Below are positions 31,474 to 35,117 of a stretch of 35,117 nt of DNA, in pieces. The DNA comes from Lishizhenia sp. (GTDB lineage: Bacteria > Bacteroidota > Bacteroidia > Flavobacteriales_D > Crocinitomicaceae): NCBI GenBank assembly GCA_007117355.1, contig SKGS01000250.1, positions 1-35,117 of the forward strand. Direction: 5' to 3'. The position numbers were made by a program, and so were the translations under genes. Positions within the stretch are counted from its first letter, which is position 1; every line of letters starts with the position of its first letter. Under the pieces are notes generated by a model, which was not told where the DNA came from, searched no databases, and worked only from the letters and a program-made list of their open reading frames with translations.

Positions 31474-32838
31474 ATGATGAAGGCAGCCTATGTACATTTA
31501 CTTTTTGGATTATTCTACCTAGTAGGCGCTTCATTTTTACCAATTTCCTCTTTTGAGCCCAAAGCATTAGGCATCGCATTTTGCATGATTCATTGGTGGA
31601 TAGCTCAACCTGTTCCAATCTATGTTACAGCTCTTGTTCCGCTGATTGTAGGCGTTCCTTTAGGCATGATTTCAGAAACAGAACTTGCATCAGCTTATGG
31701 CAATAAAATGGTGTTCTTGTTTCTAGGTGGTTTTTTGATTGCCTTGGGAATTGAAAAATGGAAGTTGCATCATTATTTTGCAGAATATATTCTTAACCTT
31801 TTCGGTAATTCACCAAAACAGATTTTACTAGGCTTTATGGTATCTACCGCCGCACTAAGCATGTGGATTAGTAATACAGCAACAGCCTTAATGATGCTGC
31901 CAATGGCGATTTCAATTATTCTCTCAATTCCGAGGTTTAGGTTAAAAAAGCGCTTTTCTATTGCGCTTTTACTGAGCATTGCTTTTTCAGCAAATATTGG
32001 GGGAATAGCAACATTGATAGGTACACCACCGAATGTTCAAATGGCTGGAATTTTAGAACAAAACTTTCAAATCGAAATAACATTTTGGCAGTGGTTTAAA
32101 TTTGGATTTCCTTTTATGCTTTTATTGTTGATAGTAACCTATTTTATATTAAGGTTGGTGTTTTTAAAAAACATCTCTTTCGAAGTAAATACGGCTAAGT
32201 CACAAAAAATGAATACCCCTCAAAAAAGGGTATTAGTTGTGTTTTTAATCACAGTTATATTTTGGATTTTTAGTGTTCCCATTTTTAAACCGCTTGGAAT
32301 TCCTATTAACGACACTATGATAGCCTTATTTGGTGGATTTTTACTTTTTATTGTTCCTCAAGAAAATAAAAAGCCACTTTTAGAATGGAACGATACAAAA
32401 CGATTGCCATGGGGAATTTTACTTTTATTCGGTGGTGGATTGGCATTAGCTAAAATGCTTGCAAATGGAAATGTTGTTATTTATGCTGTGGAATCTTTGA
32501 GTTCGTTTAGTCACCTACCATTGATAGTCATTATGTTTTTGTTTTTTGGATTAGCTCTTTTCGCAACGGAACTTATGTCCAATTTAGCACTCGTAAGCAT
32601 TTTAATTCCAGTTTTGGGAGAATTTGCAGTGCTGTACGACTTACCTTTGATAACCCTAGCAGCAGGCGTAGCAATCAGCGCAAGTTGTGCTTTTATGTTA
32701 CCCATCGCAACTCCACCAAACGCAATAGTTTATTCTGCAAACATACTTTCCATGTCTGTGATGGTACGCGTTGGTTTTATAGTGAATTGTATTACACTGG
32801 TTTTAACCACGCTTTTCCTTTATTTCTTCCATGTTTGA
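31474..32838 (+). CDS. SLC13/DASS-family anion transporter
   Basis: A 454-residue polytopic inner-membrane transporter of the divalent anion:sodium symporter (SLC13/DASS) family, importing dicarboxylates, citrate or sulfate-like anions. The first signature is MWISNTATALMMLPMA with SNT, and hairpin segments are GGIATLIGTPPNVQMAG and MLPIATPPNAIVYSANIL. In the second repeat the SNT equivalent reads TELMSNLALVSILIPVL, that is Ser-Asn-Leu. About 11 membrane segments are visible. The start is the first of two consecutive ATG codons. It follows the unknown exported protein by 15 bases. The exact substrate cannot be told from the sequence. Confidence 0.9.
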   Translation: MMKAAYVHLLFGLFYLVGASFLPISSFEPKALGIAFCMIHWWIAQPVPIYVTALVPLIVGVPLGMISETELASAYGNKMVFLFLGGFLIALGIEKWKLHHYFAEYILNLFGNSPKQILLGFMVSTAALSMWISNTATALMMLPMAISIILSIPRFRLKKRFSIALLLSIAFSANIGGIATLIGTPPNVQMAGILEQNFQIEITFWQWFKFGFPFMLLLLIVTYFILRLVFLKNISFEVNTAKSQKMNTPQKRVLVVFLITVIFWIFSVPIFKPLGIPINDTMIALFGGFLLFIVPQENKKPLLEWNDTKRLPWGILLLFGGGLALAKMLANGNVVIYAVESLSSFSHLPLIVIMFLFFGLALFATELMSNLALVSILIPVLGEFAVLYDLPLITLAAGVAISASCAFMLPIATPPNAIVYSANILSMSVMVRVGFIVNCITLVLTTLFLYFFHV

Positions 32839-32906
32839 GAACTTTATCGGCTTTCAAAAATGGATTGAAAAAGTTTTGAATGAATTGAATTTATTCTAAC
32901 CAGCTT

Positions 32907-33029
32907 TATTCACCAATCTGACAAAAAGAAGTGTTCCCAAAAAATAGGGATGCTATAAAACACCTTATTTGCATTTAAAGTGCTTTATATCAATGTGTTA
33001 CTTTATTAACGATGTCAGATTGGTGAATA
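32907..33029. repeat. 123-bp element with 17-bp perfect inverted repeats
   Basis: The 17 bases at 32907-32923 are the exact reverse complement of 33013-33029. If the outer TA on each side is a target duplication, the element is 32909-33027 with 15-bp terminal repeats, the appearance of a TA-inserted miniature element of the IS630/Tc1 type. The 89-base interior holds two smaller hairpins: 32931-32938 with 32947-32949 and 32959-32963 (interrupted), and 32976-32981 with 33000-33005. There is no coding capacity. It lies between the convergent transporter and lysA genes, 7 bases from the lysA stop. A structured bidirectional terminator is the main alternative. Confidence 0.6.
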
Positions 33030-33036
33030 TTGCGGG

Positions 33037-34182
33037 CTAAGCGACTTTTCTATTCCTTGCCTTAAAACAAGTCTCTAATGGTCTGTTAATAAACCTAGAA
33101 GGTATAGTTTCCTTTAAGTTATAATTTAATCGCATACTCGATCCATAAGCTCCTGTACTATGAACGGTTACTAAATCCCCTCTTTTTAAAATTGGAAGAA
33201 GATAGTCTGAGCCAAATGAATCGCTACTTTCACATGATGGACCACTGATGCGATAAGACGCAAAATTAAACGCTTCATGGTGTGCAGAAATTTTGTGACG
33301 TGCACCGTATAACGCAGGACGCATCAACTCTGTCATGCCAATATCAAGGATAGCCAAAGGCATAGAAGTTTCTAAGTGTTTCATGTATTGTACTTCACCA
33401 ATTAATGTACCGCATTGCCCAACTATGCTGCGTCCTGGCTCCAAACGGATTACTTCAATTAGTGAAGTCGGAAGATGTGTACGAATAGCGTTTATCCACC
33501 CTTCAAAGTTAGGAATAGGATTGCGTTCAGGTTGCTCGTAGTCAATACCTAAACCTCCACCAAGATTCAAATAGTCAAATGAATAGTTTGAAGGTAATGC
33601 ATCAATAAAATCTCTTATTTTTTTGGAAAGGCTTACAAAGTAAGTCATATCTAAGATTTGCGAACCTACGTGAACGTGGAAACCGCAAATTGAGCCGTCT
33701 AATTGAACTAATTCTAGCGCTTCCTGCGGCGAAACCCCAAATTTATGATGCTTTTCTCCAGTAGAAATATTCTCATGCGTATCCACTCGTAAATCTGGAT
33801 TTAATCGCAATGCAACTTTTGTAGAAGTTGTGATATGTTGTTTTAATTCTTGAATTAAGTGATATTCTTCCACTGATTCACAATGAATAACAAAAATGTT
33901 TTGTTCCAAAGCGTAAGAAATTTCACGAATGGTTTTACCTGAACCAGCAAATACAATTTGATTGGCATTCCATCCATTTTCTAACGCAGCCTTTATTTCA
34001 CCAGCAGAAACACAATCTACATTCATTCCACCTGATTTTATTTTTCTTAAAATTGGTTCTTCATGATTTGCTTTAATAGCATAGTGCAGTATTGTACCGC
34101 TTTGCTGTGCCGCTTCTTGAGCTACTTTTATTGTTCGCTCTAACAATTGTAAGTCGTATCTGTAATAAGGACCGTTGTACAT
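33037..34182 (-). CDS. lysA: diaminopimelate decarboxylase
   Basis: A 381-residue fold-type III PLP enzyme that decarboxylates meso-diaminopimelate to L-lysine, the last step of lysine biosynthesis. PLP is bound by Lys37 in LHYAIKANHEEPI. Further motifs are DCVSAGEI, FHVHVGSQ, LNLGGGLGIDYE, LEPGRSIVGQCG and the partner-subunit SGPSCESSD. The start at 34182 is preferred: an in-frame TTG at 34203 lies inside a promoter box. The N-terminus is shorter than in many DAPDC enzymes, and the ornithine/arginine decarboxylase relatives cannot be entirely excluded, but CESSD and EPGR favour LysA. The C-terminus ends next to the inverted-repeat element. Confidence 0.9.
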   Translation of the reverse strand: MYNGPYYRYDLQLLERTIKVAQEAAQQSGTILHYAIKANHEEPILRKIKSGGMNVDCVSAGEIKAALENGWNANQIVFAGSGKTIREISYALEQNIFVIHCESVEEYHLIQELKQHITTSTKVALRLNPDLRVDTHENISTGEKHHKFGVSPQEALELVQLDGSICGFHVHVGSQILDMTYFVSLSKKIRDFIDALPSNYSFDYLNLGGGLGIDYEQPERNPIPNFEGWINAIRTHLPTSLIEVIRLEPGRSIVGQCGTLIGEVQYMKHLETSMPLAILDIGMTELMRPALYGARHKISAHHEAFNFASYRISGPSCESSDSFGSDYLLPILKRGDLVTVHSTGAYGSSMRLNYNLKETIPSRFINRPLETCFKARNRKVA

Positions 34183-34200
34183 TTTTATTATTTTAGGCTG

Positions 34201-34208
34201 CAAATATA
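34201..34208 (-). promoter_or_regulatory. putative -7 promoter box for lysA
   Basis: On the minus strand these bases read TATATTTG followed by CAG, an exact TAnnTTTG match. It lies 18 bases ahead of the lysA ATG at 34182 and overlaps an upstream in-frame TTG, which therefore cannot be the start if this box is used. Confidence 0.55.
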
Positions 34209-34726: not shown

Positions 34727-35029
34727 ATAGTACTTTTCTTTTTGAGTATAGTGTGCAGTTTACTTTTAGAAATGGGATTAAGAATGAACATTAATTATTG
34801 GTTAAAAAGTAGTTATGTTGAAAATATTGAGTTAATCGTTATAGATAAATATATTTCTCAAGACCGACATGGTACTGACCGCTTCATAGTTTTTAATTCA
34901 AATTATGGAAGATTGACAAACAGAGTTAAGCGAAAAAAATATGAATCTTTTTCAATCGGAGACAAATATAAAGCCAATGTACACAAAGGGTTTTTTGAAG
35001 GATATTTTTTGACGGAACCACTAAAATAG
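34727..35029 (+). pseudogene. 3' part of the gene split by TGA
   Basis: The 100 codons after the TGA continue in the frame of the preceding gene to TAG at 35027-35029. They encode a hydrophobic segment (IVLFFLSIVCSLLLEMGLRM) and then a soluble beta-rich region with DRFIVFNSNYGRLTNRVK and FSIGDKYKANVHKGFFEGYF, in which the short IGDKYKANVHKGFFEG stretch has the look of DUF3592-like membrane proteins (weak). As a stand-alone gene it could start only at TTG 34742 or ATG 34772 or later, neither with a clear leader, so it is probably the severed end of a longer gene. If it were translated alone, the product would be about 85-95 residues. Confidence 0.5.
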
Positions 35030-35043
35030 CTTCAAAATTAAAT

Positions 35044-35117
35044 ATATGAACCGAGCACTTCAACAAGTTCCCTACGGTAAACTCAGGGCATCGCAGCATA
35101 CCACTTGCGAGCTCAAC
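35044..35117. repeat. G+C-rich repeat-like sequence at the window edge
   Basis: About 37 of the 72 bases from 35044 to 35115 are G or C (51%), against about one third elsewhere. The stretch begins near ACCGAGCACTTCAACAAGTT and includes CTCAGGGCATCG. The arrangement GAGCACTTC(G/A)ACAAG...CTCAG...GCATCG recalls dispersed intergenic repeats I know from Bacteroidota genomes (from memory, not verified). A short open frame MNRALQQVPYGKLRASQHTT runs to the edge, but repeat translation is more likely. The element continues beyond the window, so its ends and any partner arm cannot be judged. Confidence 0.35.

Follow-up and report, generated by a model that had tools for sequence, protein, structure and literature searches.

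Insertion sequences of the IS1380 family generate target duplications of 4 to 5 bp, and IS1380 and piggyBac are kin. Among the described systems, IS1247 of the IS1380 family is given as 1672 bp long with a 5-bp repeat (PMC3281130). In a report on piggyBac, IS1380 was used as an outgroup, and piggyBac is described there with CCC-type ends and with TTAA and its variants TTAG, CTAA, and GTAA (PMC10813416). Miniature inverted-repeat elements (MITEs) linked to other transposase families are also described. That is, the Cardinium MITE is about 240 bp long and linked to IS982 (PMC9769881), MITEPye1 is linked to IS1182 (PMC11578231), and the TIMEs are linked to Tn3 (PMC4133298); stable RNA folds are reported for the latter two. 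As these three reports describe them, such elements are short and non-coding, with inverted ends like those of their parents and with direct repeats. The elements described below share all of these features, and they differ from the three systems as reported in transposase family and tips and in being built of two arms, of which one is far more conserved than the other. Our limited literature search met no MITE of the IS1380 type in print.

The window, that is, the whole stretch of 35,117 nucleotides that was analyzed (contig SKGS01000250.1 of Lishizhenia sp.), contains a conspicuous palindrome between two convergent genes. One neighbor is a gene for a Na:sulfate/citrate-type transporter (31474-32838, plus strand; PF00939, PF03600), and the other is a gene for a PLP-dependent decarboxylase (33037-34203, minus strand; PF02784, PF00278), which the first-pass annotation had called lysA. 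We think that the palindrome is very probably a non-autonomous MITE of the IS1380 type, present as a short copy without its right arm. The family has multiple copies with common tips and target duplications, and within the same bacterial family these tips also occur on IS1380 elements, both intact ones and relics. Such a MITE family is an ordinary kind of mobile DNA. What is gained here is its link to IS1380 transposases, together with correct borders for annotation and an account of the palindrome.

The first-pass annotation had reported a perfect 17-bp inverted repeat around 89 bases that form smaller hairpins, with TA at its borders. The repeat is exact (32907-32923 and 33013-33029, 89 bases between) and lies beyond chance as judged by shuffles: the end motif, with up to 2 mismatches, occurs twice in the window against a shuffle mean of 0.02 (n=100; 2 reached in none). 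It extends outward imperfectly to 27 nt with 85% complementarity (32897-32923 and 33013-33039). The borders of the element are 32900 and 33036, giving a length of 137 bp, and its ends are 24-bp imperfect inverted repeats, namely CCAGCTTTATTCACCAATCTGACA at 32900-32923 on the plus strand, perfect over the inner 17 bp 32907-32923, and CCCGCAATATTCACCAATCTGACA at 33013-33036 on the minus strand, likewise perfect over the inner 17 bp. Read with the left arm first, which is the canonical orientation, the element lies on the minus strand. On both sides the element is flanked by a direct repeat of CTAA (32896-32899 and 33037-33040). The TA dinucleotides at 32907 and 33029 are present as reported, but they are internal to the inverted ends and are not the target duplication, since the ends reach 32900 and 33036 and the flanking repeat is CTAA.

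The element folds better than 200 of 200 shuffles on both strands, with z values of -5.7 (plus) and -8.9 (minus). The inner hairpins are also visible in the predicted folds: a small one with a CCC/GGG stem lies at 32935-32950, and a longer one, strongest on the minus strand, lies at 32952-32991. The small stem is the sole one that RNAalifold retains across all 32 left arms. No open reading frame of 60 aa was found over the 137 bp. The right copy of CTAA includes the lysA stop codon TAG (33037-33039, minus strand), and this stop codon is retained when the two flanks of the element are joined. A target duplication also overlaps a stop codon, TGA, near position 1500 of a locus in Brumimicrobium salinarum (L099, by eye); such overlap at both places is expected if NTAN-like sites are favored.

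In the genome to which the window belongs, family matches were found at 25 places (E<=1e-7, window copy included), some of which are fragments or are cut by contig ends. When the right arm of a full copy was used as the query, 34 places were found (E<=1e-5), and the end of the window is among them. A full copy measures about 230 bp and consists of a tip, a left arm, a right arm, and a tip, in that order. The left arm (about 113 nt) starts with CACCAATCTGAC and ends with GTCAGATT, and the right arm (about 94 nt) runs from TTGATTTAATTTTGACCTATTTGTCGTTACAA to TTCAAAATTAAAT. In the window copy, the left arm is followed by GG and then by the right tip, and the right arm is absent. Other short forms measure 120 bp (L019, same genome) and 91 to 168 bp (L151, L161, L162, L163, L164, Brumimicrobium); their occurrence in several places means that loss of parts recurs in the family. 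An exact 4-bp repeat flanks three of the seven short forms, counting the window copy (L001, L019, L163). The copies of the family sit at unrelated sites and their ends are conserved.

The target duplications were examined at 60 loci. Automatic pairing of the ends gave no pair at two of them, and the remaining 58 rows represent 57 unique copies, since one element appears as both L011 and L075. An exact 4-bp direct repeat was found in 47 of these 57 copies, and the repeats included TTAA, ATAA, CTAA, TTAG, CTAG, TTAT, TAAT, and TGAT; this count scores two copies with doubtful end choices (L079, L164) as misses and includes one match that uses a tip with 3 mismatches (L008). When the right flanks were shuffled 20,000 times across the 58 rows, the mean number of 4-bp matches was 16.4 and the maximum was 28. 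In 21 of the 47 copies the repeat is non-palindromic, so these duplications cannot be explained as the inverted ends continuing outward, and a flank match that is inverted and not direct was found in none of the 57 copies. Ten copies are without an exact 4-bp repeat, and two of these show a 5-bp repeat by eye (TTTAT at L132, TGTAA at L136). The proposal that this is a miniature inverted-repeat element is borne out by these many copies with target duplications at different sites. The first-pass annotation had expected that several genomic copies with TA duplications would speak for a mobile element; several copies were indeed found and do so, though with duplications of 4 bp and not of TA.

Signs of recent movement come from B. 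salinarum. Three of its copies (L092, L097, L099) do not differ at any of 230 bases and have the duplications TTAT, ATAA, and TGAT, respectively, and a fourth (L085, TTAG) is one base short of them. A second subfamily of this species comprises 19 copies that are 95.7-100% identical (mean 98.6%). Judged from sequence comparison, these near-identical copies at differing duplications point to recent movement. Three related genomes (G007, G078, G089) have both flanks of L099 with no copy between them, and there the interval is also longer for other reasons. The junction in G007, AAGCTTAAGTCAC, is substituted and similar to the joined L099 flanks, AAGCTTGATGTCAC. This comparison resembles an empty site, is not clean, and may be called suggestive. 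For the window copy, we looked at 29 other lysA-like loci with up to 1.5 kb of flank on each side, and the transporter gene accompanied lysA at none of them; eight of these genes (L124-L131), with identities of just 25-29%, are possibly not lysA. Because the pairing of the two genes is not preserved, these loci offer no empty site for the window copy. This copy has probably ceased to move, as judged from its single-copy short form and its changed tip, CCAGC.

Brumimicrobium and Lishizhenia are both genera within the Crocinitomicaceae. Among 150 sampled genomes of this bacterial family, matches to a full copy (E<=1e-5) were found in at least 7 genomes and in 3 of 24 genera; five candidates were scored per genome, so copy numbers are lower bounds. 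A 23-base piece of the right arm had exact matches in 7 stretches of the GTDB collection, which may omit records belonging to the window's own genome, and these were 4 of Brumimicrobium salinarum, 2 of a Lishizhenia MAG, and 1 of a Crocinitomicaceae MAG. A search of 59 genomes gave matches in 6, strong only in the window's own genome and in G001; the matches in G003, G012, G033, and G055 were weak, with E values of 3e-4 or worse, and were not taken as family members on this basis. In one genome (G132), five contig ends (L152, L153, L154, L155, L156) bear TTAA-CCCGCTTTATTCATCAGC and then agree over roughly another 100 bases; they mark a larger element that has these tips and is collapsed in the assembly, its inside not being assembled.

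The candidate partner of the MITE is an IS1380-family transposase. An intact one (NF033539, NCBIfam, E 3.5e-117) is encoded at L199, in another genus of the same bacterial family, by an element of 1754 bp with identical tips, TTAA-CCTGCATTATTCATG, and TTAA on both sides. At each end its tip matches the family's tip pattern in 14 of 15 bases, compared with best values of 13 and 12 in 100 shuffles. A second complete element (L200), also IS1380 by NCBIfam and likewise from another genus, is 1611 bp long with TTAA on both sides, and its tips (12/15 and 13/15) are equal to its own shuffle maxima. Neither the window's own genome (an assembly of 280 contigs in which repeats are partly collapsed) nor B. 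salinarum yielded an intact IS1380 transposase, and one relic was found in each. An intact copy may be missing from the fragmented assembly of the own genome. The own-genome relic, a PF13701 match, has TTAA-CCCTCTTTATTCATG (14/15) on one side and TCAA-CCTGAAAAATTCATG (12/15) on the other, with its 5' tip at the 95% point of the shuffles. The B. salinarum relic, likewise a PF13701 match, is a 5' relic with ATAA-CCCGAAAAATTCATA.

PF13701 was found in 14 of 240 genomes across the bacterial family, 12 of them over its cut-off. The tip test covered 17 of the 27 PF13701 rows; the remaining ten are additional pieces or copies of places already represented. At L202 and L207 the tip matched in 14/15 bases after TTAA on the 3' side (the 5' side was missing or cut off), at L206 in 12/15 after TTAA, and at L201 in 12/15 after CTAG. 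Another piece of the L201 place (L211) gave 11/15, which is within the shuffles, and a second place in G185 (L210) has different CCCG-type ends. No tips above 100 shuffles per side were found at L203, L204, L205, L208, L209, L221, or L194. Several weaker tips (both sides of L200, L201, L206, L193) equal the best of 100 shuffles and do not exceed it, although they adjoin TTAA, ATAA, CTAG, or TCAA. Our confidence in the IS1380 reading is slightly lower for this reason. The MITE family resembles IS1380-family insertion sequences in its tips, which read CCYGC(A/T)TTATTCATG in the members from the same bacterial family, and in the TTAA duplication. In contrast to them, it has no transposase gene and measures 137 bp here and usually about 230 bp, whereas the two complete IS1380 elements are 1611 and 1754 bp long. 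It also resembles piggyBac, as reported, in the CCC-type ends and in TTAA with variants; piggyBac elements belong to animals, whereas this family is bacterial.

The first-pass annotation had named an IS630/Tc1-type transposase with TA duplication as the mover, and an IS5-like enzyme might also be considered, since IS5-like elements prefer YTAR. A mover of either kind would fit the central TA of most duplications (TTAA, CTAA, ATAA, TTAG, CTAG, TTAT), and one of the PF01609 controls (L197) has a one-sided tip match of 12/15, the same value as its shuffle maximum, with no TTAA-like flank. The duplication, however, is 4 bp long, or 5 bp in the two cases seen by eye, and it includes TGAT and TAAT. 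A 2-bp TA duplication was not found at the borders of the elements, where the repeats are of 4 bp, for example TGAT, CTAG, or TTAG. In addition, PF01609 (IS4/IS5-type) had no match in the own genome, and among the PF13701 and PF01609 loci tested, tips above the shuffles on both sides were found at IS1380 loci only, with none at the three PF01609 loci (L195, L197, L198) or at L194. We therefore regard movement by another transposase as improbable, and the IS630/Tc1 proposal gives way to the IS1380 family, whose transposons have matching tips. Two other identities were rejected separately. An integron attC site has a fixed GTT, and the tips here read GGGTTA, GGGCTA, and GGGATA, so that no GTT is fixed; movement of the IS200/IS605 type is ruled out by the existence of duplications.

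It was also proposed that the palindrome acts as a structured RNA, or as a terminator that serves both of the convergent genes, transporter and lysA. Its very stable fold and its position between these genes agree with this idea, as does the retention of the right-arm stems across the family: 874 of 896 cells (98%) are paired in 32 rows. The stability, however, is a consequence of the inverted ends. In the right arm, changes on both sides occur in just 4 of 28 pairs. The left arm has 305 of 321 cells paired and 4 of 19 pairs changed on both sides within the own genus (17 rows), and over all genera (32 rows) RNAalifold retains 3 pairs with 85 of 95 cells. These counts are uncontrolled for relatedness, and we therefore do not claim an RNA function. 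A terminator-like site, that is, a G+C stem followed by a T run, was found at none of the positions in 32780-33160, and Rfam gave no match to 32700-33240 at E<=1 and one match at chance level to a full copy. The copies sit at unrelated places, and the 29 other lysA-like loci had no family element beside lysA save a 22-base match (E 0.006). Among 51 copies, 44 were classifiable by gene context as 19 convergent, 20 tandem, and 5 divergent, based on crude ORF calls with no background. Taken together, a structured RNA or double terminator is highly improbable as the identity of the feature, and a secondary effect on the 3' ends of transcripts is possible.

For the IS1380-type MITE, we infer from these sequences that an IS1380 transposase acts in trans by cut-and-paste steps. 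That is, a DDE transposase of this family, whose gene lies on a different element, would bind the CCCGC(A/T)TTATTCA tips, excise the MITE, and insert it mostly at NTAN sites, leaving a duplication of 4 bp or sometimes 5 bp. The window copy would have been inserted in this way into CTAA, just where lysA ends. Its right arm was possibly lost by template switching on the inner stem, which would account for the extra GG. A recently active small element together with a candidate transposase would provide a usable test system.

The two arms are conserved unevenly. Between 9 copies of the own genus and 5 copies of Brumimicrobium, the mean identity is 85% for the right arm and 53% for the left arm, and conserved right arms are seen in L002, L092, L086, L087, and others. 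We tentatively raise the possibility, which we consider more doubtful than not, that these elements form a bacterial IS1380 MITE family in which the right arm is a selected module, either a site for the transposase or a host factor or a structured RNA or DNA payload spread by the transposon. This unevenness poses a concrete question, and the window copy has lost exactly the conserved right arm.

At the contig end of the window, 35020-35117 is a fragment of another family copy, namely the end of a right arm (matched over 35021-35050), followed by a REP-like palindromic stretch that begins with CCGAGCACTTCAACAAGTTC. An extra REP-like palindromic segment of variable length is present in many copies (L007, L012, L018, L022, L066, L150, L167, and others), located at one fixed point in either tip, TTA|TTCA, as though this were a preferred site or a longer variant of the tip. 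Finally, at 1481-1510 of another locus (L068, contig C272 of genome G000), a 30-bp palindrome, AACCCGTTTTATTTATGAATAATTCGGGTT, consists of two tips joined directly without a body, and it is perhaps the remnant of an abortive event.
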